Shown here one piece after another: positions 3,863 to 56,082 of a stretch of 56,082 nucleotides of DNA. The translations under genes were made by a program, and so were the position numbers. Every line of letters starts with the position of its first letter. Position 1 is the first letter of the stretch. The stretch lies in assembly GCA_903910445.1 (NCBI GenBank), contig CAIVZR010000097.1, forward strand, positions 64,348 through 120,429, given 5' to 3'. Source of the stretch: an uncultured Bacteroidota bacterium. Its GTDB lineage: Bacteria; Bacteroidota; Bacteroidia; UKL13-3. The notes beneath the pieces are model-generated. The model did not search any database. It saw only the letters and a list, made by a program, of their open reading frames with translations, and was not told the origin of the DNA.

Positions 3863-5007
3863 TTTGCATCAATCAATTTACATAACCCATCATTAAAACA
3901 TGCCACCTTTAAAGGAGCATAAAGTTCGTAGGTCTTCTTTGTTTCATTGCTGGTTATCTCGCAAGAAAAGTAGAGCTTGGCGTAAGATTGCACTTCTTTG
4001 AGTACAATGAAATCCGATTTGCTAAAAGGGAATATCGCATTCGATTTGTCCAAAGGCACCGACTTTAAAATGGCTCCTTTATAATCTCTTATAATCAAGC
4101 TGTAAAAACAGTTACACGAACTATAAGCGGCATCAACCACACAAGAAATTCTTTTTTCGATTGGATCATAACGAATTCCTCCAGTAAAATTCTCGCACTT
4201 TAGCACCGGTATTGGTGCGGGTTTAATATATACCGGATTGGGCTTTGGTGCAGGGGTATAAGTATAGGCTGGTGGCGTGTAGGAATTAACTGGAGGTGTA
4301 TAAGCTACTGGCATGTTTACGGCATTATTGATTTCTGCGGATGCAGTATCTTTTCCAATCGAATCACTACTATCCGGAATAATAGGTGTAATTGGTGGAT
4401 TATAAGAAATAATAATACTCGTCATCGAATCATTTGCCAAAAGTGCTTTAGAAATGGCATCTCTTAAGGTCTTTAGGTCGTGGTATGTATTTACATTCTC
4501 AATATTTGTTGCCCCCGTATTGTAAATGAAAAAATTCTTCTGATTGATATTGGATGCCAGGTAATTTTGAAAATTAAAGTTGATTGTGGTATCAACTTGT
4601 GTTGCATAATCGATATTGAATATGGTATTTCCAAAAAACTTTTCAATCATATATTCTGCACCATTGGCTTTATCCATATCCGCCTTTCCTATCGATGCAT
4701 TTTTTATGCTGAGTGTTTGGGAGGCGTTGTTTAAAAAATCACTAAAATATATATCATCAAAAATGAAATTGTAAGTTTTATCATTTGAAATGAGATTGAT
4801 AAATGGATAGGCTATTTCTTTTAGTTCATTTGGATAATAAGGTTTATTATCAACCATTCGGGGGCTTATATTCCCAAAGGTATGAATTGCGATTTTAAGG
4901 TGACGGGTATTGTTTTTTTTGGTATCAGAATTACAACTCCATAAGAAACATATCAATGAGATATAAAGCCCATTTAAACAAATGTTTTGAATATGTTTGA
5001 TTGACAT
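3859..5007 (-). CDS. lipoprotein with proline-rich linker, first gene of surface operon
   Basis: A 382-residue protein, function unknown. I chose the ATG at 5007 rather than an in-frame TTG at 5022. A hydrophobic stretch ends in LWSC, making C25 the probable lipidated Cys. Residues about 30-195 form an alpha/beta-looking domain (LKIAIHTFGNI, then a conserved-looking YMIEKFFGNTIFNI), followed by a low-complexity linker rich in Pro, Thr and Tyr (PPAYTYTPAPKPNP). The C-terminal 110 residues form a second, Cys-containing domain beginning CENFTGGIRYD. It is the first of four co-directional genes ending at the window edge, and its stop overlaps the next start. It could be an anchored scaffold or binding protein; I cannot name a family. 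Confidence 0.75.
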   Translation of the reverse strand: MSIKHIQNICLNGLYISLICFLWSCNSDTKKNNTRHLKIAIHTFGNISPRMVDNKPYYPNELKEIAYPFINLISNDKTYNFIFDDIYFSDFLNNASQTLSIKNASIGKADMDKANGAEYMIEKFFGNTIFNIDYATQVDTTINFNFQNYLASNINQKNFFIYNTGATNIENVNTYHDLKTLRDAISKALLANDSMTSIIISYNPPITPIIPDSSDSIGKDTASAEINNAVNMPVAYTPPVNSYTPPAYTYTPAPKPNPVYIKPAPIPVLKCENFTGGIRYDPIEKRISCVVDAAYSSCNCFYSLIIRDYKGAILKSVPLDKSNAIFPFSKSDFIVLKEVQSYAKLYFSCEITSNETKKTYELYAPLKVACFNDGLCKLIDAK

Positions 5008-5520
5008 AAAATTATACTTCAATATCTAATAAATTAGCTTGGAACCAAGTAAGAAGGCTTAAACACTAAAGCAGTTATTCAACAGAGAAAATGATTGAAA
5101 TTCAATCAAAAGTAATTGGCTTTTTTTTCGCTAATTGAATCCTGTTTCCTGTTCTTTACAGACTTCAGAATTCCAATTGCAAATATGTTGCATTTAAGTT
5201 TAGCGATTCGCTCAGAATCCCCGAAAAATAGGATTAATATAAACAATGTTTCAACAAGTGTAAAAGTTAAAAGCTAAAGGCATTAACACTTCGGATATTT
5301 TTATAGGGCGAGTATCCAACACAGCATGTAAACTGGATATAATCCCAATAGGTGATTACAGCACGTTCCAAACTAATTCCTGGTACATGAGCAGTTGCTC
5401 CTTAACTAAAGCAAAATATTTTAACATTATGATTGCCAGAAATCGTTTTGGACTCCAGGTAATTCAATACATGAGTACCATTTTAATTTTTCTATATATT
5501 CGCATCATAACCTATTCCTT
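5008..5520. other. intergenic region between divergent genes
   Basis: A 513-base AT-rich gap between the leftward surface operon and the rightward secreted-protein gene. It holds the candidate leftward promoter at 5107-5114. A plus-strand frame from about 5268 to 5523 is free of stops for roughly 85 codons but has no start near its beginning; its only ATGs are late and give about 45 residues. No RNA gene or strong hairpin was seen. Confidence 0.6.
5107..5114 (-). promoter_or_regulatory. candidate -7 element TACTTTTG for surface-protein operon
   Basis: Read on the minus strand, this is an exact match to the Bacteroidota -7 consensus TAnnTTTG, about 100 bases upstream of the ATG at 5007. The expected TTTG 19 bases further upstream is CAAT, so support is only partial. 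Confidence 0.4.
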
Positions 5521-45013: not shown

Positions 45014-46006
45014 ATGGGAATAGTACCTTTTATAAAACCTGACAGAGTTATAATGCACAAAGAAACTGATTTCTTTGGTTTGTTCGAATTCAGACCATTG
45101 GAAAAAGGTTACGGTGTAACTATCGGTAACGCAATGCGCCGCATTTTGTTATCTTCTCTCGAAGGATATGCTATCATTAGTCTTCGCATGCCGAAGGTAG
45201 ATCATGAATTTTCTACTATCAAAGGTGTTGTTGAAGATGTTACAGAAATCATCCTTAACTTAAAGCAAGTACGTTTTAAATCACGCGTTGAATTAAACAG
45301 TACCGAGAAAATATTTATCTCTATCAAAGGACAGGATAAAATGACCGCAGGTGATATCGGAAAGCATACCAATTCATTCGATATCTTAAACCCTGACTTG
45401 GTTATCTGTAATATGGATCCAGCTTTAACTATTGAAATGGAAATTCAAGTAGCTAAAGGTCGTGGATACTTATCAGCAGAAGAAAACAAACCAGAAAATG
45501 CGCCGATCGGTTATATCGCTATCGACTCAATTTTCACCCCTATTAAAAACGTAAAATATTCAGTTGAAGATTACCGCGTAGAACAAAAAACGGATTTTGA
45601 AAAACTCGTTCTTGAAGTAACTACCGATGGTTCTATTCACCCTGAAAATGCTTTGAAAGAAGCTGCTAAATTGTTAATTCACCATTTCATGTTGTTCAGT
45701 GATGAGAACATGACGCTAGATGTTCCTAAACGTGTAGAAACACCTGAAGTGGATGAGCAATTCATGCAAACTCGCAAAATATTGAAGACTCCATTATCAG
45801 ATCTAGACCTTTCAGTTCGTGCTTACAATTGCTTGAAAGCCGCTGAAATTCGTACCTTGGCTGATTTGGTTAAATATGATATCGCTGACTTATTGAAATT
45901 CCGTAACTTCGGTAAGAAATCATTAACCGAACTAGAAGAATTGGTACGTGAGAAAGGTTTAACTTTCGGAATGGATATTTACAAATACAAAATAGATCAA
46001 GATTAA
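45014..46006 (+). CDS. rpoA: RNA polymerase subunit alpha
   Basis: 330 residues. The N-terminal dimerisation domain carries [15 protein letters not shown], and the C-terminal domain, after a linker near 240-255, has [20 protein letters not shown] and [16 protein letters not shown] for promoter UP-element and activator contacts. Alpha is the assembly platform for beta and beta-prime. Confidence 0.98.
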
Positions 46007-46073
46007 TTAAAATTTTTAGATAAGTGACTTGACGGATTCGTCCGCTCAAAAACACTCATCTCTGACCACCATC

Positions 46074-46616
46074 ATGAGACACGGAAATAAGATAAACAAA
46101 TTAAGCAGAACGGCTTCTCACCGCCGCGCATTAATGAGCAATATGGCTACTGCTTTAATTACCAACAAACGTATTTTCACTACGCTTGCTAAAGCAAAAG
46201 CCTTACGTGGTTATATCGAGCCATTATTGACTAAAAGCAAAACCGACACCATGACCAATCGTCGTGTGGTGTTTAGTTACCTACAAGATAAAGAAGCCAT
46301 CAAAGAATTGTTCGGAAATATCTCTAACAAGATTGCTAACCGTCCAGGTGGTTATACTCGTGTATTACACGCAGGAAATCGTGCAGGTGATAATGCAGAA
46401 ATTGCAATGATCGAATTGGTTGACTACAATGAAATTTATAGCAAACCATCTAAATCTGCAGAAACTCCAGCGAAGAAAACACGTCGTGGTAAAACAAAAG
46501 TGACTAAAACTGAAGATGGAGAAGCTCCAGCAGCAGAGGTTAAAAAGCCTAGAGCTAAAAAAGCAGCAGCTCCTGAAGCTGAATCTACAGAAGAAACTAC
46601 TACTACAGAAGAGTAA
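46074..46616 (+). CDS. rplQ: 50S ribosomal protein L17 with long charged tail
   Basis: 180 residues from ATG 46074; an in-frame TTG at 46029 is rejected because L17 proteins begin [12 protein letters not shown]. The conserved core runs to about residue 120 ([19 protein letters not shown]). A tail of about 60 residues rich in Lys, Ala and Glu follows, a feature also seen in other Bacteroidota L17 proteins. It is the last gene of the operon and is followed by a terminator. Confidence 0.96.
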
Positions 46617-46637
46617 TACCTCCTTCGTTATAAAATT

Positions 46638-46671
46638 AAAAGGCAACCAATTCATATTGGTTGCCTTTTTT
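46638..46671 (+). terminator. rho-independent terminator of the ribosomal protein operon
   Basis: A perfect 13-bp stem (46638-46650 with 46657-46669, 6-base loop) ending in a run of six T, 21 bases after the rplQ stop. Confidence 0.93.
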
Positions 46672-46724
46672 GCGTTTATGATTTTGCATTTATTATCCGA
46701 TAGCGGTGATATATCGTAAAATGT

Positions 46725-46732
46725 TACATTTG
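46725..46732 (+). promoter_or_regulatory. candidate -7 element TACATTTG for the lipid-type gene cluster
   Basis: Exact TAnnTTTG match 19 bases before the ATG of the HMG-CoA reductase gene and 53 bases after the ribosomal operon terminator. The -33 site is AGCG rather than TTTG. It is the only promoter candidate seen ahead of the eight-gene cluster. Confidence 0.55.
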
Positions 46733-46751
46733 CCTTTCAACAAGATAATTA

Positions 46752-48035
46752 ATGTCAACTTCTTCAGAAAAAGCCAAAGCGCTTATAAAGCTAATAGAGA
46801 AAACCGATGAGTGGGATCGAATACTTCAAACCTTACATCCACAATCTCTGAATCCTGAAGAAGGTCAACCTGCCATTCCCGGATTACTTAGCTGGTCAAA
46901 GGAATCCTTTGATAAACGATTAGAATTTATTAAATCGGTAAAGGGAATGAACTTGGGCAAACTCTCTGGTAAAGAACCGATGCCCACCAATCCAGAATTA
47001 TATCAAGGCAATATCGAAAACTTTATTGGAATGACGCAAGTGCCCACCGGTTTGGTTGGACCACTACTAATTAATGGAACCATCGCCCAAGGCGATTTTT
47101 ATGTGCCTCTCGCAACCACCGAAGGTGCCTTGGTTGCTAGTTATAGCCGAGGCGCAAAAGCCACTCGTTTAAGTGGTGGTATTACCTCCGTTTGTTTAAC
47201 TGAAGCGGTTCAGCGTACCCCGGTTTTTAAGTTTGTATCATTACCTGAAGTAGGGAAATTTATGTATTGGATCCTCGATCAGGTTAATCATTTTAAAGCC
47301 ATCGTGAAAACAAAAAGTAAGCACGCAGAGCTTATTGATATGCGATTGAATATGGAAGGTAATCAGGTTCTTTGCATTTTCGATTACTCCACGGGCGATG
47401 CTGCCGGACAAAACATGGTAACCATTTGTACCGACGCAATATGTAATTATATCATTGAAAAAACTCCAATTCAACCTCAAGTTTGGTATTTGGAAAGCAA
47501 TTACTCGGGCGATAAAAAAGCAACGGTGGTTAGCTTTTCTACCGTGAGAGGCAAGAAGGTTACAGCAGAAGCAGTCATCAAAGAAAAAATTGTAAAGGAA
47601 GTATTGTTTTCTACTCCAAAGCAAATTGTGCAGTACTGGCAAACCAGCAGCGTGGCTGCCGTTCAGAGTGGCAGCATTGGAATACAAGGTCATTTTGCAA
47701 ATGCCTTGACCGCGATCTTTATGGCCTGCGGTCAAGATGTAGCCTGTGTGAGTGAATCCTATGTTGGGATTACTCGAATGGAAGTGAATGATGCAGGCGA
47801 TTTATACGTTACGGTGACGTTACCAAGTTTGGTAGTGGGAACCATCGGTGGAGGAACACGCTTACCAACCCAACGCGAATGCTTGGAACTTCTCGATTGC
47901 TATGGAGAAGGGGGTGCGCGTAAATTCGCTGAAATATGCGGTGCAACAGTGCTTGCAGGTGAACTCAGCATCGCCGCTGCCTTGGCTAGTGGAAGCTTCG
48001 CAAAAGCACATCGACTCTTCGGAAGAAAAATATAA
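46752..48035 (+). CDS. HMG-CoA reductase, class I-like
   Basis: A 427-residue soluble enzyme that reduces HMG-CoA to mevalonate with two NAD(P)H. All four catalytic residues of the class I family can be placed: E124 in LATTEGALVASYSRGA, K255 in SGDKKATVV, D329 in CGQDVACVSES and H420 in GSFAKAHRLFGRK. DAAGQNM (216-222) replaces the usual DAMGMNM of the cofactor site, and GTIGGGTRLPTQ is conserved. It lacks membrane segments, as in archaeal-type soluble enzymes. Many Bacteroidota make isoprenoids by the MEP route, so this gene is worth notice. It heads the cluster, 7 bases before the UbiA gene. Confidence 0.92.
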   Translation: MSTSSEKAKALIKLIEKTDEWDRILQTLHPQSLNPEEGQPAIPGLLSWSKESFDKRLEFIKSVKGMNLGKLSGKEPMPTNPELYQGNIENFIGMTQVPTGLVGPLLINGTIAQGDFYVPLATTEGALVASYSRGAKATRLSGGITSVCLTEAVQRTPVFKFVSLPEVGKFMYWILDQVNHFKAIVKTKSKHAELIDMRLNMEGNQVLCIFDYSTGDAAGQNMVTICTDAICNYIIEKTPIQPQVWYLESNYSGDKKATVVSFSTVRGKKVTAEAVIKEKIVKEVLFSTPKQIVQYWQTSSVAAVQSGSIGIQGHFANALTAIFMACGQDVACVSESYVGITRMEVNDAGDLYVTVTLPSLVVGTIGGGTRLPTQRECLELLDCYGEGGARKFAEICGATVLAGELSIAAALASGSFAKAHRLFGRKI

Positions 48036-48042
48036 TTAAAAC

Positions 48043-48963
48043 ATGAAAGATTTTCTTAAGCGATTTAATATTTATCAGCAGGAACGATTTCCATTCATAG
48101 GATATATTTTTATGATCGGGGCATTCAGTTTCTCTGCAGTCTCTTATAGTCGCATCTGCCGCGGGGCTGTTGGTTTTATCGAGTGGAAAGTATTTTTGCT
48201 TGGTGTATTTACAACCCTCACCTTGTTTTTATTGGTAAGGATTTTCGACGAATTTAAAGATCATGAAGACGATATGAAATATCGTCAATACCTGCCAGTG
48301 CCTCGAGGTCTCATTACCCTAAAAGAACTTTTTTATGTGGGTGCCATCACCGTATTGCTTCAAGTATTGGTGAACTTATTTTTTCCAAAGATGTTCATTA
48401 TCTACCTAGTAGTGATGGCATACCTCAGCCTGATGGGAAAAGAGTTTTTTATTCCCAAATGGCTTAAAGAACATCAGTTTTGGTACGTTACAAGTCATAT
48501 GTTTATCATTCCATTGGTTGATATTTATGCCAGCGGTTTGGATTGGTTGCTTGCTGGGGTAGCAGCACCATTGGGACTACTCTACTTTTTCGGGGTAAGC
48601 TATATGAATGGAATCGTGCTTGAAGTGGGACGAAAAATAAAACCAGAAGCCAAAGAGGAAGAAGGGGTTATTAGTTATACCAAACTGCTCGGACAAAAAG
48701 GAGCTCCAATTACTTGGCTGGCTTGCCTTTTAGGTACACTTGTATTTGCATTGCTTGCGGCACATTATGGTGGCTTTGGCTGGCAGTTGTTTTGGGTTTT
48801 AATTGGTTTGTTTGCCCTATGTGCAAGTCCTGCCATTATTTATCTAATGGCAAATTCACCATCTCAAAAAATAGCGAAGTATATTGAATATGCTTCTGCA
48901 TTATGGACTTTCGGAATGTATCTTTCTTTAGGTGGCATTCCCATGTTGATGAAATTACTCTAA
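48043..48963 (+). CDS. UbiA-type prenyltransferase family protein
   Basis: A 306-residue membrane protein with about eight hydrophobic helices. The first Asp-rich site is RIFDEFKDHEDD (D69, D73, D77), as in UbiA enzymes that bind Mg-prenyl diphosphate, followed by RQYLPVPRGLIT. The second site is less usual: EVGRKIKPEAKEEEGVISY, with Glu and Arg/Lys in place of the DxxxD. Family members join a prenyl chain to an aromatic ring, sugar or glycerol-type acceptor at the membrane. Its stop shares a base with the next start (TAATG). The acceptor here is unknown. Confidence 0.82.
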   Translation: MKDFLKRFNIYQQERFPFIGYIFMIGAFSFSAVSYSRICRGAVGFIEWKVFLLGVFTTLTLFLLVRIFDEFKDHEDDMKYRQYLPVPRGLITLKELFYVGAITVLLQVLVNLFFPKMFIIYLVVMAYLSLMGKEFFIPKWLKEHQFWYVTSHMFIIPLVDIYASGLDWLLAGVAAPLGLLYFFGVSYMNGIVLEVGRKIKPEAKEEEGVISYTKLLGQKGAPITWLACLLGTLVFALLAAHYGGFGWQLFWVLIGLFALCASPAIIYLMANSPSQKIAKYIEYASALWTFGMYLSLGGIPMLMKLL

Positions 48964-51563
48964 TGAAATTATACACCCACAGCGATACTCATGGAGCAAC
49001 TCCAGTGATGGAAATAGGTGGCAAGGCCTCGAGCCTTTTGGCACTTTGTCAATTGAAAATGACTGTGCCTCCATTTGTTATTATTCCTGCCGGCGTTTTT
49101 TCTGAGATGCTTCCTAAGGGTGATGGCCCCAATTATTTAGAAATCATAGATCATATTTCAATCCCGAATGCACTGCTTTCAAATATAAAACGAGAACTTT
49201 TTACCACCCCCGAAACCCTTGTGGCAGTGCGATCTTCAGGTATTGATGAAGATGGAGGAACCTTCTCGTTTGCAGGGCAATTTATCACCGAACTTTTTGT
49301 CTCAGAAGCAACACTCGAAGGGGCAATTAAAAAAGTATGGACATCTGCATACGATGAACGGGTAGTAAATTACCGTAAGCACAATAATATAAAAACCAAC
49401 GGTGCCATCGCCATCATCGTACAGCGAATGGTGAACGCATCAGTTGCTGGTGTAGCCTTTGGAATGAATCCTGTGAGTGGTCAACGCGATGAATTCATCA
49501 TCTCGAGTGTGTTCGGACTAGGGGAAGGATTGGTATCGGGGGAGCTTGATTCAGATAATTTTGTAATGAATAGCAGAGGCGATTTAATCTCTTCATCAAT
49601 TGCACAAAAAACAAGTGAGGCATGTATGAAACCCAATGGTGGCATCATGATGCAGCCGGTTATGGAGTCGAGGCAAAATGAGCCATCACTATCACCTAAA
49701 CAATTAACAGAAATACATGGTGTTATAAAATCCTTAAGAGAGCAGTTGAAATATTATCCCGATATTGAATTTGCTTATGAAAAGGAACAGTTGTTTTTAT
49801 TGCAAGTGCGTCCTATTACAACTGCTAAAAATTTACCCGACCCTAAGGGCAAAAAAATTGTATGGGACAATAGTAATATCATTGAGAGTTATCCTGGGCT
49901 TACCAGTCCGCTCACTTTTTCATTCATTGTAAAAATGTATGAAGCAGTGTATCGTCAGCTTTCACTCGTAATGGGTATTGATGAAAAAAAGGTGGAGCAA
50001 CATGCAGGTATTTATTCGAATATGTTAGGGCTCCTCAAGGGACGCGTTTACTATAACCTAAACTCTTGGTATGGTGCCTTACAACTCTTACCAGGCTATA
50101 GTTTGAATGCAGCCTTCATGGAGAAGATGATGGGGGTAAAGGAAAGCTTTGATAGCGGACTAATTATCGAAAGAAAAGGATGGCGCGATTACCTCGATAT
50201 ATTTAGAGCAATTCGAAAAATACTTTATAATCTGAGAACATCCAACCAGCAACGAATTGAGTTTCAATCCTATTTTAATCAGGTGATGAAGCACTATGAG
50301 TCGATTGATTTCTCGGAGTTATCGGCGAATGAATTGATGGAGGTTTATCTTGAGTTTGAACAAACCTTGGTGAAGAAATGGAAGGCCCCGTTGGTCAACG
50401 ATTTCTTTGCGATGATTTATTTTGGAGTGCTTCAAAAGCAATGTGCATCCTTGTTTCCAGAGGCACCAGTAATGCATAATGATTTGGTATCGGGAGCCAA
50501 TGATATAATTAGTACAGAACCTATTACCTTGTCATTGAATCTTGTTTCGGCTATTGAGAAGGATCCAAAATGTAAAAAAATATTCGAAGAGAGATCACCA
50601 CTCGAAATTTGGGACTTGATGAAATCGGGTGAGATGAACGAAATATATGGGATGGTGAAAAACTATATCTACCGCTGGGGCGATCGATCGGTAGGAGAGT
50701 TGAAGCTCGAAACCCTTACCTACCATCAACATCCCGAATGGTATCTCTCCATTTTAAAATCCTATTTACAACAAGGAGTTACTAGCCACACAAAATCTAA
50801 AAATAATTTAAGAGCAGAAGCGGAGAACAAATTAGAAGAAAAATTACGAGGCAAACCGTTAAAGAGATTCATTTTTAAATATGTTTTACGCAAGGCAAGG
50901 TACTTTGTAAGTAATAGAGAAAATTTGCGATACGAGCGTACCCGCGGTTTTGGTATGGTTCGCAATATGTTTCTGGCCCTTGGTAACAGGCTGTTCGCCG
51001 AGCAAGTATTATCACATCCTAGAGATGTATTTTGGTTATCGCAAGAAGAGTTATTTGATTTTATCAATGGCACGTCGATACACGTAAACTTAATGCAATT
51101 GGTGCAATTAAGAAAGAAGGAATATGAGGAGTATGAGAAGGAAACTCCAAATGAACGAATCACTACAAGGGGTATGGTTTATTCGGGCAATTCATTTTTA
51201 CAAGATTTCAGCATGCCAACACTTGAGGCGCAGAGCACCTTATATGGCATTGCCTGTTGTGCGGGAATCGTGAAAGCGAAAATTCGAGTGGTGCATCATC
51301 CCTCAGAAATAACGGGGCTCGATGGCGATATTTTGGTAACGAGCAGTACCGATCCAGGATGGGTAACACTTTTTCCAACATGCTCAGGAATTCTGGTTGA
51401 GCGGGGCAGTTTATTAAGTCATTCGGCTATTGTAAGTAGAGAAATGGGCATCCCTTGTATTGTTGGTATTAAAGGGCTTTTGCAGCAAGTGAAAACTGGC
51501 GATTGGGTGCTCATGAATGGAATCACAGGAAGTATACAAATTTTAAACGGCGAAGCAGAATGA
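48963..51563 (+). CDS. dikinase-like protein of rifampicin phosphotransferase/PigC architecture
   Basis: An 866-residue protein. Start ATG 48963 is chosen over ATG 48903 because it overlaps the previous stop in TAATG. Residues 1-310 are a PPDK/PEP-synthase-type ATP-grasp domain (VAVRSSGIDEDGGTFSFAGQF region, EFAYEKEQLFLLQVRPI). The middle 330-740 is not the TIM barrel of PEP synthase but a distinct helical region. The C-terminal swivelling domain carries GSLLSHSAIVSREMGIP with phosphorylated-type H820. This order and length match rifampicin phosphotransferase and the prodigiosin ligase PigC, which use ATP through a phospho-His to phosphorylate or condense a small molecule. Its substrate is probably the cluster product or an intermediate. 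Confidence 0.82.
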   Translation: MKLYTHSDTHGATPVMEIGGKASSLLALCQLKMTVPPFVIIPAGVFSEMLPKGDGPNYLEIIDHISIPNALLSNIKRELFTTPETLVAVRSSGIDEDGGTFSFAGQFITELFVSEATLEGAIKKVWTSAYDERVVNYRKHNNIKTNGAIAIIVQRMVNASVAGVAFGMNPVSGQRDEFIISSVFGLGEGLVSGELDSDNFVMNSRGDLISSSIAQKTSEACMKPNGGIMMQPVMESRQNEPSLSPKQLTEIHGVIKSLREQLKYYPDIEFAYEKEQLFLLQVRPITTAKNLPDPKGKKIVWDNSNIIESYPGLTSPLTFSFIVKMYEAVYRQLSLVMGIDEKKVEQHAGIYSNMLGLLKGRVYYNLNSWYGALQLLPGYSLNAAFMEKMMGVKESFDSGLIIERKGWRDYLDIFRAIRKILYNLRTSNQQRIEFQSYFNQVMKHYESIDFSELSANELMEVYLEFEQTLVKKWKAPLVNDFFAMIYFGVLQKQCASLFPEAPVMHNDLVSGANDIISTEPITLSLNLVSAIEKDPKCKKIFEERSPLEIWDLMKSGEMNEIYGMVKNYIYRWGDRSVGELKLETLTYHQHPEWYLSILKSYLQQGVTSHTKSKNNLRAEAENKLEEKLRGKPLKRFIFKYVLRKARYFVSNRENLRYERTRGFGMVRNMFLALGNRLFAEQVLSHPRDVFWLSQEELFDFINGTSIHVNLMQLVQLRKKEYEEYEKETPNERITTRGMVYSGNSFLQDFSMPTLEAQSTLYGIACCAGIVKAKIRVVHHPSEITGLDGDILVTSSTDPGWVTLFPTCSGILVERGSLLSHSAIVSREMGIPCIVGIKGLLQQVKTGDWVLMNGITGSIQILNGEAE

Positions 51564-52648
51564 GCGAATTAAAAGAACGTGCCGACTTTGGAATCATTCG
51601 TTATGCGAATTGTTGGGAGGATGCTGATGTATTACTCGAGGGATTGCAATTGAATCCTGGAGCATCTATTCTATCCATTGCTTCTGCTGGCGATAATGCC
51701 TTGGCACTGCTTGCTACCCAACCTGAATTGTTGCTTGCCGTTGATTTGAGTATGGTGCAATTGCATATGCTTGAATTAAAAAAAGTAGCCATCAACCAAT
51801 TAGAACAGGAGGAATTTCTGGCATTTATTGGCGTAACCGAATCGGTTCACCGAATGTCGGTTTTTAAAAAGTTGAAATTTTCGATGCCTTCAAATGCCCG
51901 TCAGTACTGGGAAGCAAACACACATAGTATTGAAAATGGAATTATTCATTGTGGCAAATTTGAAAAGTATTTTAAATTTTTTAGAAGATGGATGCTCCCT
52001 TGGGTGCATGCTTACAATACAAAAGTGGAACTCTTCCGTACAAAAGATGCCAGTGAACAAGCGCGTTTTTATCATACTACATGGAATGATTTTAGATGGA
52101 GATGGTTGTTTAAATTCTTCTTTAGCAAACGAGTTATGGGGAAGTATGGTCGTGACCCGGAATTTCTCAATGAAGTGAAAGTACCTGTTGATGAGTTCAT
52201 TTTTAAAAAGGCCGAAACACATCTCATCTCATTGAATGCACAAAAGAATTATTTCTTGAAAATGATTATGCTCGGTACCTTTGGTGAACCATTACCATTT
52301 TACATGCGTAAAGAAAATTACCAGTTGATTCGGCAAAATTTAAATCAGCTTAAAACCTACCATGGCTATGCTCAAGAGGCATTTATCCAGATGCCAAAAA
52401 TAGATGCATGTAATCTTTCGAATATATTCGAATATATGTCGACCGAAATATTTGATTCGATAGCCATACAATTGGCCAGCAATACCTCTAAAGGCTGTAA
52501 GATGGCATACTGGAACTTAATGGTACCACGACGCTTATCGCAACATTTGCCAGAAAAATTTGAATATCAAAAGGCAATATCAGAAAATATTTCCGCCAAC
52601 GACCTTGGTTTTTTTTATAATGGATTTTATTTGGATCAGCGAATATGA
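51560..52648 (+). CDS. BtaA-like 3-amino-3-carboxypropyltransferase
   Basis: A 362-residue protein of the BtaA (DUF3419) family, which moves the aminocarboxypropyl group of S-adenosylmethionine to the hydroxyl of diacylglycerol, the first step in betaine lipid synthesis. The family signature is clear: YANCWEDADVLLEGLQ, then SILSIASAGDNALALLA for SAM, then LAVDLSMVQLHMLELK. The start ATG 51560 overlaps the previous stop in ATGA; a TTG upstream is rejected. BtaB, the N-methyltransferase that completes betaine lipids, was not found in the window, so the product may be a homoserine-type lipid or something else. It is the fourth gene of the cluster. Confidence 0.88.
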   Translation: MSELKERADFGIIRYANCWEDADVLLEGLQLNPGASILSIASAGDNALALLATQPELLLAVDLSMVQLHMLELKKVAINQLEQEEFLAFIGVTESVHRMSVFKKLKFSMPSNARQYWEANTHSIENGIIHCGKFEKYFKFFRRWMLPWVHAYNTKVELFRTKDASEQARFYHTTWNDFRWRWLFKFFFSKRVMGKYGRDPEFLNEVKVPVDEFIFKKAETHLISLNAQKNYFLKMIMLGTFGEPLPFYMRKENYQLIRQNLNQLKTYHGYAQEAFIQMPKIDACNLSNIFEYMSTEIFDSIAIQLASNTSKGCKMAYWNLMVPRRLSQHLPEKFEYQKAISENISANDLGFFYNGFYLDQRI

Positions 52649-53307
52649 GCCACGATTTAATCAATACCATATGGCTTTCAGCCTCTTTCCTGGGACTCTT
52701 TGGCTTTGCCGAAGTGCTTTATCATTTCTTGCATATCAAAGCGGAGTTGACTCGAAAGCTCGTTCATTTTGGGACAGGAATTTTAACCTTTCTATTTCCT
52801 GTTTTTTTGAGTAGTCATATTTGGGTGCTGGCCTTATGTGCTTCGTTTGCATTAATTCTCATCGTATCGTTGAAGTTTAAATTATTGCCTTCTATCAATG
52901 CCGTCAATCGTATTACCTGGGGAAGTTTATGTTATCCATTGTCAGTGTATATATGTTTTATAGCCTATGAATTCAATGGTAACCAATCGATATTATTTTA
53001 TTTACCGATACTCCTCTTGGCCATCTGCGACCCATTGGCAGCCCTGGTTGGCAAACGCTGGCCGTGGGGGAAATATTCCATTTTCGGCAATCATAAATCA
53101 TTAGCGGGTTCCCTTGTTTTTTTCATAACAGCGAGCATCTTCTCCTTTTTTTATATTCAACAGTATGCTGTATTAAATTTGGGGGTTTTAATTCCTGCAA
53201 TCCTTATTGCTTTGTTTGCTACTGTTGCAGAAGCCACTAGTAATAAGGGTTTCGATAATATCACGATTCCATTGGCAGTGGTAATTTGCAGTTTGGTTTT
53301 ATTATAA
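52645..53307 (+). CDS. phytol/dolichol kinase-like membrane protein
   Basis: A 220-residue protein with about seven membrane helices. ELTRKLVHFGTGI at about residue 35 and DPLAALVGKRWPWGKYSI, followed by NHKSLAGSLVFF, match the CTP-dependent kinase family of VTE5, SEC59 and DGK1. These phosphorylate prenols such as phytol or dolichol, or diacylglycerol. Next to a UbiA enzyme and an HMG-CoA reductase, a prenol kinase role is attractive but inferred. The start overlaps the BtaA-like stop in ATGA. Confidence 0.8.
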   Translation: MSHDLINTIWLSASFLGLFGFAEVLYHFLHIKAELTRKLVHFGTGILTFLFPVFLSSHIWVLALCASFALILIVSLKFKLLPSINAVNRITWGSLCYPLSVYICFIAYEFNGNQSILFYLPILLLAICDPLAALVGKRWPWGKYSIFGNHKSLAGSLVFFITASIFSFFYIQQYAVLNLGVLIPAILIALFATVAEATSNKGFDNITIPLAVVICSLVLL

Positions 53308-53313
53308 TTTACC

Positions 53314-54306
53314 ATGGTACAAAAACTAAATTATGATGAACTCTCGCAGAGTGGTTTTTTAAAACTGCCCGAATTGTTATATGATAATATCAAGATTAAG
53401 CAAGTTCCAAATGAAATTATCGAAGACGATTTTGTAAAAGCATTATTGATTCCAGAAAAAGGAAGGTTAGTGCTTTTTCATCACCCAGCGATGATTAATC
53501 AAGGTGTGCCGTATATGACGCTCGGTTTCTTTGAATGTATTGATGATATTGAAATAGCGAGGGCCCTCTTCGACGCTGCTCGTGAAGTGGCAATAAAACT
53601 TGGAATAAAATCCTTGGTAGGTCCAATGAATGGAAACACATGGAATGCCTATCGATTTATGGAATCAGGGTCAACACCTTTGTTTCTTACAGAATACTAT
53701 CACCATCATTATTATTTAAAACTTTGGGAAGGAGGTGGTTTTAGTCCGATTGCAAAATACTTCAGCAGTATTGATATGCAATTGAACTTGAATGAGGATA
53801 TAAATGATGAAGCTTTGGAGAAGAAATTTAAAACAGAAGGAATCAATATTCGTTCGATCAATATAGCGCTATTTGAGCAAGAGATTGGTTTGATTCATGA
53901 GTTTTGCAGCACCTATTTTGTAAATAATTTTTTATTCACTCCAATTGAATCGAATGCATTTCTTGCAAAATATATGCCCATCAAACCCTTAATTGACCCT
54001 GGTTTTGTGAAGATTGCAGAAGATGAGAATGGAAAGATTACCGCCTTATTTTTTGCAATACCTGATATCTATAATTCAGTGACGCCTACCTTAGTTGTAA
54101 AAACGATTGTCAGAAATCCATCTCGAAAATATGCTGGCATCATTCATTTATTGGGCAATTTGATTGTGAAAGAAGCGCGCAAAAAGGGATATTTGCATAT
54201 GATACATGCATTCATGCATGCATCAAATAGCTCTAATAAAGTATCAAAAAAGTTTTCAGGTGAAGTATTTCGTTCATATGTTTTATTCGGAAATAATATA
54301 AAATAA
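53314..54306 (+). CDS. GNAT-like acyltransferase-fold protein
   Basis: A 330-residue cytoplasmic protein. Segments such as LGIKSLVGPMNGNTWNAYR, the TEYYHHHYYLKLWEGGGF turn and the C-terminal KEARKKGYLHMIHAFMH look like the acyl-CoA N-acyltransferase fold, of the kind found in large GNAT-like proteins of unknown role. It starts 6 bases after the kinase-like gene and ends 2 bases before the SRPBCC gene. An acyl transfer to an amine, such as the aminocarboxypropyl group made by the BtaA-like neighbour, would fit the context but is not shown by the sequence. Confidence 0.6.
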   Translation: MVQKLNYDELSQSGFLKLPELLYDNIKIKQVPNEIIEDDFVKALLIPEKGRLVLFHHPAMINQGVPYMTLGFFECIDDIEIARALFDAAREVAIKLGIKSLVGPMNGNTWNAYRFMESGSTPLFLTEYYHHHYYLKLWEGGGFSPIAKYFSSIDMQLNLNEDINDEALEKKFKTEGINIRSINIALFEQEIGLIHEFCSTYFVNNFLFTPIESNAFLAKYMPIKPLIDPGFVKIAEDENGKITALFFAIPDIYNSVTPTLVVKTIVRNPSRKYAGIIHLLGNLIVKEARKKGYLHMIHAFMHASNSSNKVSKKFSGEVFRSYVLFGNNIK

Positions 54307-54308
54307 AA

Positions 54309-54911
54309 ATGAAACGAGTCGTAAAATTGTTTTCAGGTATTAGCATTTTCTTACTAATTATAGTATTATTAGTTATTTGGTTTAGCCCCTATGGAAAACA
54401 TGATGGCTTTTCCTATAAACTCGTTAAAAACACAGTGCAAGTCAATGTTTCAGCCGATTCTGTTTTTCGATATTTAGGCAATTCGGAAAATGCCAAACGC
54501 TGGTCGGTATTCGTGGATCATATTACGCCATTCGATACAAGCCTTATTCCTGATGGATTCATTGGCAGTAAACGACGTTGCTTTTGCCAATCTGATGAGA
54601 AAGGAATTTATTGGGATGAGACCGTAGAAGAGGTGATACCCAATGTAAAAAGAAAACTCTCCTGTTATAATCTTCATGGATTTTCGATGAGTACAACGGA
54701 TATCGCTACCGAACAACTATATGTCGCAAACTGGGATGGGAGCTGCGACTTGACCTTTACTTTTTTTATTGATGACCGGGAGCCAGGATTTATCGAATCC
54801 TTAAAACTCTATCTGGGGGCTTATCGTATCTCAAGTATTTTTAAACGCAACTTAGAGAATATGAAATCCGGTTGCGAAAATCAAAAACGTATTCATCAAA
54901 AGGAACAATGA
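54309..54911 (+). CDS. membrane-anchored SRPBCC-fold protein
   Basis: A 200-residue protein with one N-terminal membrane helix (about residues 8-26) and a following START/polyketide-cyclase-like domain: VNVSADSVFRYLGNSENAKRW, then ITPFDTSLIPDGF and YWDETVEEVIPNVKR. SRPBCC domains hold hydrophobic ligands such as lipids. It overlaps the next start by ATGA and lies 2 bases after the GNAT-like gene, so it is part of the same operon. A lipid-holding role at the membrane is inferred. Confidence 0.7.
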   Translation: MKRVVKLFSGISIFLLIIVLLVIWFSPYGKHDGFSYKLVKNTVQVNVSADSVFRYLGNSENAKRWSVFVDHITPFDTSLIPDGFIGSKRRCFCQSDEKGIYWDETVEEVIPNVKRKLSCYNLHGFSMSTTDIATEQLYVANWDGSCDLTFTFFIDDREPGFIESLKLYLGAYRISSIFKRNLENMKSGCENQKRIHQKEQ

Positions 54912-56082
54912 ATATAGCCAATATTTTTGAATCATCGGTAAACCAGTGGCCACATCGAACCGCCATCATTGATAAGGATGGTCGCGAATATTCGTTTGAT
55001 GAATTACACTCCCTGGTGATGATGCAATTGAAAATATTCCAATCACGTGGGATCAAGGAAGGCGACCGGGTAATGGTATTTGTTCCCATGAGTATAGAAC
55101 TCTATGTATCGGTTCTTGCTTTGTTTTACGCGGGTGCCACCGCTGTTTTTTTGGATGAGTGGGTAAATCGCAAGCGACTCGATTACTGTTGCGAAATGGC
55201 CAATTGTCGTGGCTTTATCGCGGGGGCTAAAATTCGATTCCTTGCCATCACAAGTAAATCAATACGAAATATTCCATTATGGTTTAAACTGCCTGCCTCA
55301 CAAGTGGTTCAGGAAAAGAAGCAAGTGCCATCCGATGCAAGCGCGAAGCATCCTGCCCTGATTACATTTACCACTGGAAGCACTGGTCAGCCTAAGGCTG
55401 CCATTCGCACCCATGAATTTTTGAAGGCGCAATTTGATGCCTTGATGCCCCTCACTACGCCCTTTCCTGAGCATCCTTCTGGCCCTGATATGCCCATGCT
55501 TCCCATCGTATTGCTATTAAATTTGGGTAATGGAGTTAGCTCGGTGATTGCCGATTTTAAAGCAAGTAAACCACTGGAGTTTGATGCAAGTAAAATATGG
55601 AATCAGATTGCAAAACATCAAATCGTAAGCTTAACGACCTCTCCATATTATTCCAATTTAATTGCGAAGGCTGCGCCCATTCATCAACATTCCTTAAAAC
55701 GAATCATACTTGGTGGTGCTCCTGTTTTCCCCGATTTAGTTTCGAATATCCAATCAAAAATTCCGGGCATCGAAACCATTGCAGTGTATGGGTCATCGGA
55801 AGCGGAACCCATTAGTCATTTAAAAGGAGACGCACTTATTGCGTTTCATCAACAGGTGAGTCCGCAGGAAGGATTGCTTGCCGGAGTGCCTGATATGAAT
55901 ACTAAAATTGCGATTATTTCACTGGACTATAACAACGGTGATGCATTCTCTCCCTTAACGAATGCCAATGAAATCGGAGAAATTTGTGTGAGTGGAGCTC
56001 ATGTATTGCAAGATTATTTGAATCCAACAGAGGCCACCCGTCAACAAAAAATTTGGGTGGGAAATCAGTGCTGGCACCGCAC
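54908..56082 (+). CDS. AMP-forming acyl ligase, cut by right window edge
   Basis: Open for 391 codons from ATG 54908 to the edge, so the C-terminal lid domain is missing. The ANL-superfamily motif ITFTTGSTGQPKAAIRTH (about residues 152-169) binds ATP, and YGSSEAEP is the later A5-type motif. Such enzymes activate a carboxylic acid with ATP, usually to its CoA ester. The phosphate-binding loop and the RTHEFLKAQF segment recall OleC-type ligases, but that is a weak impression. It is the eighth cluster gene, its start overlapping the SRPBCC stop. It could supply an activated acyl group to the GNAT-like protein. Confidence 0.88.
   Translation, partial: MNIANIFESSVNQWPHRTAIIDKDGREYSFDELHSLVMMQLKIFQSRGIKEGDRVMVFVPMSIELYVSVLALFYAGATAVFLDEWVNRKRLDYCCEMANCRGFIAGAKIRFLAITSKSIRNIPLWFKLPASQVVQEKKQVPSDASAKHPALITFTTGSTGQPKAAIRTHEFLKAQFDALMPLTTPFPEHPSGPDMPMLPIVLLLNLGNGVSSVIADFKASKPLEFDASKIWNQIAKHQIVSLTTSPYYSNLIAKAAPIHQHSLKRIILGGAPVFPDLVSNIQSKIPGIETIAVYGSSEAEPISHLKGDALIAFHQQVSPQEGLLAGVPDMNTKIAIISLDYNNGDAFSPLTNANEIGEICVSGAHVLQDYLNPTEATRQQKIWVGNQCWHR

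Follow-up and report, generated by a model that had tools for sequence, protein, structure and literature searches.

The described systems that come closest to the gene cluster considered here are betaine-lipid (DGTS) synthesis by BtaA and BtaB, the bacterial mevalonate (MVA) pathway, archaeal ether-lipid synthesis together with its version in bacteria of the FCB group (PMC7852524), bacterial ceramide synthesis by Spt, bCerS and CerR (PMC11087976; PMC11334938), the Rph and PigC/RedH enzymes, the OleC β-lactone synthetase and the ebo cluster (PMC9235831). The cluster is made of eight open reading frames (ORFs; g1 to g8), all on the + strand from position 46752 onward, at the end of a 56,082-nucleotide stretch of DNA from an uncultured Bacteroidota bacterium (assembly GCA_903910445.1, contig CAIVZR010000097.1, positions 64,348 to 120,429). 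Hereafter, this whole stretch is called the window and the bacterium the host. An earlier note on the same DNA had placed eight same-strand genes here; all eight ORFs were found, with intergenic spacings of +7, −1, −4, −4, +6, +2 and −4 nt from g1 to g8. That these genes serve one dedicated, coherent biosynthetic pathway is nearly certain, and its product is probably both a lipid and an isoprenoid. The reading as a whole, an undescribed pathway whose product would be an N-acylated (phospho)lipid of homoserine type with an isoprenoid part, its chemistry being deduced from the enzyme families, stands about midway between right and wrong.

The core of the cluster is seven genes, which encode an HMG-CoA reductase (HMGR; g1), a UbiA-type protein (g2), a dikinase (g3), a DUF3419 protein (g4), a kinase (g5), a GNAT protein (g6) and a ligase (g8). 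The relatives compared were the best 80 of 156 confirmed relatives from a scan with g4. In these 80 loci, many of them cut by contig ends, profile searches recovered g1 in 50, g2 in 61, g3 in 74, g5 in 73, g6 in 73, g7 in 14 and g8 in 69. Untruncated loci, i.e. those with at least 6 kb upstream and at least 5 kb downstream, number 42, the other 38 being left out for a short flank. All seven core genes are present in 35 of the 42, 33 times in the order of the window and twice permuted; five of the remaining seven loci lack only g1, one has g4 to g6 and g8, and one has g4 alone. The g1 gene of genome G014 and the g1 to g3 genes of G013 sit on the same contig beyond the fetched stretch, and the count becomes 37 of 42 when both are included. 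Since the SRPBCC gene g7 occurs in only 14 of the 80 relatives, it is regarded as dispensable and the core is counted as seven genes: of the eight-gene unit first described, the seven-gene core is what is conserved. Apart from the eight genes, no family is found in more than 7 of 83 clustered loci. With no recurring flanking family, the conserved unit is the operon and not a wider synteny.

A sample of 395 genomes of the phylum was drawn to avoid bias toward close relatives. Here, with a threshold of 1e-20, 34 genomes matched g4, 12 with scores of 260–546 bits and 22 with 152 bits or less. By score, g4 is a subfamily separated from the other DUF3419 proteins of the phylum. It exceeds 430 bits in eight genomes, and all eight carry the seven core genes (the window and loci L092–L096, L136 and L137); g6 exceeds 250 bits in the same eight and in no other of the 395. 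In the 20 kb fetched for each, the other four high scorers have g2 to g6 (L097), g2, g3, g4 and g6 (L098), g4 and g6 (L099) or g4 alone (L100). Six of the 22 low-scoring loci were fetched and no other cluster gene was labelled in them; in one, L101, g4 itself also went unlabelled by the ORF caller. The earlier note had set beforehand, as a test, that the genes should stay neighbours in relatives, and so they do, both in the untruncated loci and in eight of eight carriers of the phylum sample.

The set is not restricted to Bacteroidota. Among 395 genomes of the phylum of a Geobacteraceae carrier, g4 has two matches at 1e-30, the carrier itself included, and the second genome has all seven genes in the order g6 g8 g1 g2 g3 g4 g5. 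A plasmid of the alphaproteobacterium Roseinatronobacter also carries all seven, in window order and with 30–46% identity, the reductase gene spanning the record start. Cultured carriers include Dyadobacter fermentans (L020) and D. soli (L011). Judged by these sequence comparisons, the cluster is shared across several phyla and occasionally mobile. Nothing was found in favour of the idea that unrelated genes have become neighbours by chance; conservation of the set across phyla and through changes of order, together with the absence of any frequent flanking family, makes it extremely improbable, and the neighbourhood counts refute it.

The position of g1 with respect to isoprenoid supply was considered in 40 carrier genomes, namely the host and the genomes of 39 of the 80 loci, searched for the methylerythritol phosphate (MEP) route, the MVA route and GGGP synthase (GGGPS). 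The host has the MEP-route enzyme Dxr and no match to the diphosphomevalonate decarboxylase model TIGR01240 at E ≤ 0.001, and g1 is the only HMGR found in its genome. Its sole match to the mevalonate kinase model TIGR00549 reaches 102 bits (cut-off 163), and on the model for the heptose kinase HddA, with a cut-off of 600, the same protein has 400 bits. Taken together, Dxr, the missing decarboxylase match and the kinase match that scores as HddA rule out membership of the host reductase in the mevalonate pathway; on these profile matches, g1 is not part of that pathway in the host. As the MEP route is present in the host and the later mevalonate steps have left no trace there, g1 is no isoprenoid-supply gene, and mevalonate is more likely to be a building block, a role to which we give an even chance. 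The earlier note had proposed a product with an isoprenoid part and a homoserine part derived from S-adenosylmethionine (SAM), possibly acylated. This would still be the best reading of the enzyme set, with the correction that HMGR does not provide the isoprenoid.

The other carriers can be compared with the host. Dxr is present in 33 of the 40. Strong matches to the decarboxylase, with E of about 1e-45 or lower, were obtained in eight, and four of these are over the curated cut-off. No strong match is found in 32 carriers, nine of these having only GHMP cross-matches of 21–29 bits. HMGR occurs in 30 of the 31 carriers with Dxr and without a strong decarboxylase match. The conserved motifs of g1 liken it to the reductase of the bacterial mevalonate pathway; however, the cluster enzyme is of class I type, whereas a class II HMGR that passes TIGR00532 (264–282 bits, cut-off 260) is encoded in each of the eight decarboxylase-bearing carriers. 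In seven of these eight there is also a second HMGR, of class I type. In three of them (G008, G011 and G039) the class II gene is no more than about 2 kb from that of the decarboxylase; in the remaining five it is distant or on a different contig. In a tree, seven class II copies fall outside a group of 51 that comprises 48 of 48 cluster reductases and three other class I enzymes of carriers (support 0.61). The eighth decarboxylase-bearing genome, G033, has no cluster HMGR and the class II copy only; although this is a single case, such a pattern would be expected if the cluster needed mevalonate from any source. TIGR00549 is over its cut-off in none of the 40 carriers, MVA users included, although the latter do have weaker matches next to the decarboxylase gene, G008, G011 and G021 among them; this model by itself is uninformative, and what counts for the host is the identity of its single match. 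Further class I type HMGRs, of about 516–766 aa, are encoded outside the cluster (L127:1347-3665 in G022, L128 in G023, L129 in G015 and L142 in G004). The role of HMGR in bacteria using the MEP route is left open for Streptomyces in the relevant section of a 2026 review (PMC13001223).

Might the cluster nevertheless be an unusual source of precursors? In such a model, HMGR, unorthodox kinases and a decarboxylating ligase would give extra isopentenyl units. The cluster does encode an HMGR, an OleC-like ligase and two proteins resembling kinases, and mevalonate is a β-hydroxy acid. However, Dxr of the MEP route or a strong match to the MVA decarboxylase is already present in 39 of the 40 carriers, some having both, with G023 as the exception, and the DUF3419, GNAT and UbiA proteins would be left without a role. 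This model appears very unlikely.

Considering the described systems one after the other, the cluster fails at least one tested feature of every named pathway that it resembles. The link with BtaA/BtaB is g4, which belongs to the BtaA family; we take the function of BtaA to extend to DUF3419 proteins, and the reaction ascribed to g4 is presumably the same. By this analogy, g4 is expected to transfer the 3-amino-3-carboxypropyl group from SAM. However, no BtaB-type SAM methyltransferase is found among the eight genes, whereas in R. leguminosarum the DUF3419 gene is followed by a methyltransferase gene. In addition, six other core enzymes have no counterpart in betaine-lipid synthesis, and g4 stands apart from other DUF3419 proteins by its score. 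A search for solved-structure relatives of g4 gave a single chance-level match (E 0.084), and a fold search gave weak SAM-methyltransferase-like matches, none at E ≤ 0.001. g3 resembles Rph and PigC/RedH by its PPDK_N and PEP-utiliser domains with a conserved His motif, LSHSAIVSRE, kept in the swivelling domain across cluster members, but it is far under the curated cut-offs (272 of 999 bits for Rph, 320 of 1300 for PigC). The same holds for g8 and OleC, with 127 of 850 and 122 of 900 bits for the cut fragment and 150 and 152 bits for the plasmid protein. As for the ebo cluster (EboC/Ubi-297; PMC9235831), it is likewise a conserved Bacteroidota operon with a UbiA protein, as far as the relevant part of that source describes it. 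However, the eboA, B, D and E genes named there are not among the eight, and against the EboC model the plasmid UbiA scores 24.6 bits for a cut-off of 250; identity with ebo is rejected by gene content.

In open-access full text, among the matches listed, no described pathway has this gene set, in line with the earlier note (subscription journals and preprints are outside this scope). The claim of a new system thereby also survives the second test set by that note, a match with an already characterised pathway. DUF3419 is mentioned in four of the open-access papers searched, and UbiA in none of these four.

The kinship of g2 with UbiA-type transferases recalls archaeal ether-lipid synthesis and its FCB-group version, as does the occurrence in some loci of a CDP-lipid module, once with a CarS-like member (PMC7852524, in the part concerned). 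Aminocarboxypropyl transfer, the GNAT protein and the ligase are foreign to that pathway, and GGGPS is not found in the cluster. An archaeal-type ether lipid with a homoserine head could still be imagined if GGGPS were provided from elsewhere in the genome, g2 were a DGGGP synthase and g4 acted on the glycerol of the diether as BtaA does on diacylglycerol. PcrB/GGGPS is indeed present in 35 of the 40 carriers, host included (only carriers were counted), and the plasmid UbiA weakly matches DGGGPS models (24–25 bits). One locus, L066, also has CarS-like and CDP-alcohol transferase genes directly behind g8. Against this, the UbiA protein of the window matches no DGGGPS-named model at E ≤ 0.1, the HMGR and the dikinase would have no role, and PcrB is absent from five carriers, G012 and four recorded as lying outside Bacteroidota (G024, G025, G037 and G038). 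These five weaken an obligate archaeal-lipid route, and we hold the ether-lipid alternative to be unlikely.

For g6, the comparison leads to ceramide synthesis. In the phylum sample, the g6 profile has matches at E ≤ 1e-15 in 364 of the 395 genomes, a number that comprises the eight full carriers; the best match outside clusters and variants is at about 144 bits. Five loci of g6 paralogues were fetched, and in three of them the related GNAT gene adjoins one for a serine-palmitoyltransferase-like protein (744 bits in one, over the cut-off of 640, and 489 and 503 bits in the others, under it). As judged by profile matches, g6 is a remote relative of this GNAT, whose gene neighbours those of serine-palmitoyltransferase-type enzymes. 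AMP-ligases supply acyl groups in some bacterial ceramide clusters. The gene for bacterial ceramide synthase often lies beside that for serine palmitoyltransferase, according to the section concerned of PMC11334938, and it is by this gene context alone, not by bCerS sequence, that the adjacent GNAT is likened to bCerS (see also PMC11087976, for the part dealing with this enzyme). The kinship of g6 with this GNAT suggests N-acylation of an amphiphilic amine, the most natural candidate being the amine of the aminocarboxypropyl group. The cluster differs from ceramide synthesis in that no serine palmitoyltransferase is present among the eight genes or among the families recurring inside the cluster.

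Further clues to the product come from neighbouring genes. In 7 of the 80 loci (L018, L025, L028, L037, L044, L066 and L081), genes of the CTP_transf_1 or CarS-like and/or CDP-OH_P_transf families lie in the cluster or abut it, in L025 divergently. They were checked with Pfam in L018, L028, L044, L066 and L081 and assigned by family clustering in L025 and L037. In L066 (positions 4385-5477), from a Bacteroidetes metagenome genome, a CarS-like cytidylyltransferase gene and a CDP-alcohol phosphatidyltransferase gene follow g8; the former protein scores 27 bits as CarS-like (cut-off 22) and 44.5 bits on a CDP-archaeol-synthase-type model (cut-off 148). The presence of a cytidylyltransferase and a CDP-alcohol transferase in some clusters points to a phospholipid-like product. 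Besides these CDP-lipid genes, no further family is found inside clusters in at least five loci, once minus-strand shadow ORFs are set aside.

These neighbours also bear on whether the product would rather be a soluble or secreted secondary metabolite, such as a β-lactone, a siderophore-like compound or a prenylated amide. g8 lies in the OleC/PRK09274 neighbourhood, and g3 is nearest to PRK06241.2 PEP-synthase-type models, with PigC/RedH ligases next. HMGR, AMP-ligase and GNAT may together be likened to the fungal mevalonyl siderophore enzymes, the mevalonyl-CoA ligase SidI and the mevalonyl transferase SidF, an analogy under which mevalonate would be the substrate of the ligase and of the GNAT protein. 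P450 genes are found behind g8 in L008 and in four Crocinitomix-type loci (L067, L073, L074 and L076), where they probably encode a tailoring step. On the other hand, secondary metabolism fits poorly with the CDP-lipid genes of some loci, with the lack of any other recurrent added family, and with UbiA and g5 families that we take to be integral membrane enzymes. A secondary metabolite is improbable, if somewhat less so than the ether lipid.

Distant variants of the cluster, in which parts are replaced, were found in the phylum sample at L097, L098 and L099. In L098:1738-10632, the genes for UbiA, dikinase, GNAT and DUF3419 are accompanied by those for a thioester-reductase-like protein, a phosphatidylserine decarboxylase and a lipid kinase of YegS type. 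L097:5012-15034 is similar but has no such kinase, and L099 has a PEMT-DUF3419 fusion, a LysA-like decarboxylase and a lipid kinase. The lipid kinase, the phosphatidylserine decarboxylase and the thioester-reductase-type protein of these variants also speak for the lipid character of the product.

Returning to the isoprenoid, N-acylated homoserine lipid, the following scheme may be envisaged. g1 would reduce HMG-CoA to mevalonate, which would be kept as a building block and not turned into isopentenyl diphosphate. g2 would join a polyprenyl chain to an alcohol acceptor. g3 would phosphorylate or otherwise activate an intermediate via a phospho-histidine, with release of AMP and Pi. With g4, a homoserine ether would be formed, the 3-amino-3-carboxypropyl group being moved from SAM onto a hydroxyl. 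A carboxylic acid, either a fatty acid or mevalonate, would be activated by g8 and moved by g6 onto the amine, as by the N-acyltransferases related to bacterial ceramide synthase, and g5 would phosphorylate a lipid alcohol. Where a cytidylyltransferase and a CDP-alcohol phosphatidyltransferase are encoded as well, as in some genomes, these would then add a head group. The order of the steps and the attachment points are guesses.

Several observations weigh against this scheme. Five untruncated loci have no g1 nearby (L010, L046, L050, L061 and L072). Four of the genomes concerned were searched for the enzyme: G004 has another class I copy elsewhere, G033 a class II enzyme only and G023 a cluster-type copy on another contig, while G017 lacks any HMGR, its assembly being possibly incomplete. 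In the variants L097 and L098, g2, g3, g4 and g6 are kept although neither HMGR nor g8 lies within 20 kb, which argues that mevalonate is not needed for the part of the pathway catalysed by these four. Dxr and the mevalonate route coexist in carriers G008 and G011. The HMG-CoA synthase model PF01154 is above its cut-off in none of the 40 carriers, but it also misses the eight MVA users and is therefore no guide to precursor supply. The g2 protein is barely over the gathering score of UbiA and its second motif region is altered, so that from its sequence the prenyl donor is not certain. Finally, the CDP-lipid genes are present in 7 of 80 loci only, and the CarS-like match is weak (27 bits). In L061:12273-14735, g6 and g8 were seen in one open frame. 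This GNAT-ligase fusion is excluded from the evidence, since the GNAT end is garbled before the ligase start and a frameshift of metagenome assembly is likelier.

The features of the locus are collected in Table 1. Superfamilies are assigned for most of the enzymes by profile, and for the remainder by motif or fold. The starts of g3, g4 and g8 are ATG codons chosen inside longer ORFs of a program-made list.

Table 1. Features of the cluster and of its upstream boundary (positions in the window).
Feature	Position	Strand	Basis or remark
Intrinsic terminator, 14-bp stem	46638..46669	+	closes the rps/rpoA/rplQ operon and sets the cluster apart
TACATTTG, candidate −7 element of a Bacteroidota-type promoter	46725..46732	+	about 20 nt upstream of the first start codon
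g1, class I HMG-CoA reductase, 427 aa	46752..48035	+	Pfam HMG-CoA_red, 386 bits
g2, UbiA-type membrane prenyltransferase, 306 aa	48043..48963	+	Pfam UbiA, 39 bits (gathering 34)
g3, PEP-synthase/Rph/PigC-type His-dikinase, 866 aa	48963..51563	+	PPDK_N, 183 bits; PEP-utilizers, 81 bits
g4, DUF3419 (BtaA-like) protein, 362 aa	51560..52648	+	PF11899, 214 bits (cut-off 28.2)
g5, VTE5/dolichol-kinase-type CTP-dependent lipid kinase, 220 aa	52645..53307	+	conserved motifs
g6, tandem-GNAT acyltransferase, 330 aa	53314..54306	+	GNAT matches of orthologues and predicted fold
g7, SRPBCC protein (Polyketide_cyc2-like), 200 aa, optional	54309..54911	+	25.8 bits, just under the cut-off of 27.4
g8, AMP-forming acyl ligase, 501 aa in total	54908..56082	+	AMP-binding, 138 bits; last 110 codons and stop on contig C35 (L003:1-472)

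In an alignment of 50 rows, g1 keeps the motifs AT.EGaL.AS, GDKK, GQD and AH, which we take to be catalytic. The first motif of g2, DEFKDxxxD, is preserved among cluster members, and the second region reads ExGRKI, a deviation from the aspartate-rich second motif that we assume to be usual in UbiA proteins. The motifs YGSTEAEP, HRTGD and RHxSK of g8 are also kept across cluster members. No Pfam or NCBIfam model matched g5 or g6 at E ≤ 0.1. For g5, RK..H, D..A, K...G, E and DN...P are invariant in the orthologue alignment, which we take to be the signature of VTE5/dolichol-kinase-type CTP kinases; no solved-structure relatives of g5 were found, and in several lineages the protein is longer (440–472 aa) and has a second half. 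At E ≤ 10, g6 has only two unrelated chance-level matches. However, GNAT models are matched by two of its orthologues, and its AlphaFold model (mean pLDDT 92.8) is a predicted tandem GNAT, with N-myristoyltransferases among the fold matches.

At the upstream boundary, four terminator-like sites were counted over both strands of the 401-nt stretch, where shuffled sequences gave 0.3 on average; the site listed in Table 1 is that with 14 pairs. The element TACATTTG is called a candidate on the basis of TAnnTTTG, which we assume to be the consensus of the Bacteroidota −7 element; there is no clear −33 element upstream of it, and no sigma-70-type site was found on the + strand of the 401-nt upstream stretch. 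No Rfam family reaches its gathering score within 46000-56082. At the other end, g8 is interrupted by the contig end at position 56082 of the window and completed on contig C35 of the same genome. The end of the window contig and the start of C35 share exactly 141 nt and the joined frame of g8 has 501 codons for amino acids. Since the two contigs overlap in the assembly, the window ends within a gene for technical reasons. On C35, the next + strand ORF begins 717 nt after g8 and no NCBIfam model matched it at E ≤ 1e-10; at this distance and without such a match, the operon most likely ends after g8.

DUF3419 genes were also seen in other settings. L099:5443-11870 (G171) encodes a 620-aa protein in which a PEMT-type methyltransferase is fused to DUF3419, a YegS-type lipid kinase, a GNAT protein, a LysA-like decarboxylase and a class II aldolase, a set that, from its gene content, looks like another undescribed DUF3419 pathway. 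On a small plasmid of Deefgea piscis (NZ_CP054144.1; L114:4505-9025), a DUF3419 gene stands beside speD and genes for an iron-containing redox enzyme and a monooxygenase, which by gene context is a different use of the family. On the Rhizobium plasmid pMK-2 (L138:1-5646), DUF3419 is accompanied by a ketoacyl-ACP synthase III, a metallo-hydrolase and a CoF-synthetase-like ligase.

That seven enzymes are conserved across phyla at identities as low as 30% implies that their product is real and under selection; within the searches made, no name for it was met. This product may be among the unidentified aminolipids that figure in Bacteroidota species descriptions. It is tempting to imagine a new class of bacterial membrane lipids in which free mevalonate would serve as C6 backbone or acyl block, bearing a polyprenyl ether and a SAM-derived homoserine ether, N-acylated, and converted in some lineages to a phospholipid through CDP activation. 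Its genes would have spread between phyla as a unit, plasmid included, and HMGR in MEP-only bacteria would thereby be explained. So complete a picture is possible but rather doubtful. Whatever the exact structure, g1 offers a concrete and testable role for HMGR in MEP bacteria. Class I reductases are sensitive to statins, as stated in the section concerned of PMC13001223, so that an inexpensive drug test of the cluster is possible. If the reading is true, BtaA-type aminocarboxypropyl transfer would operate in lipids besides the betaine lipids.

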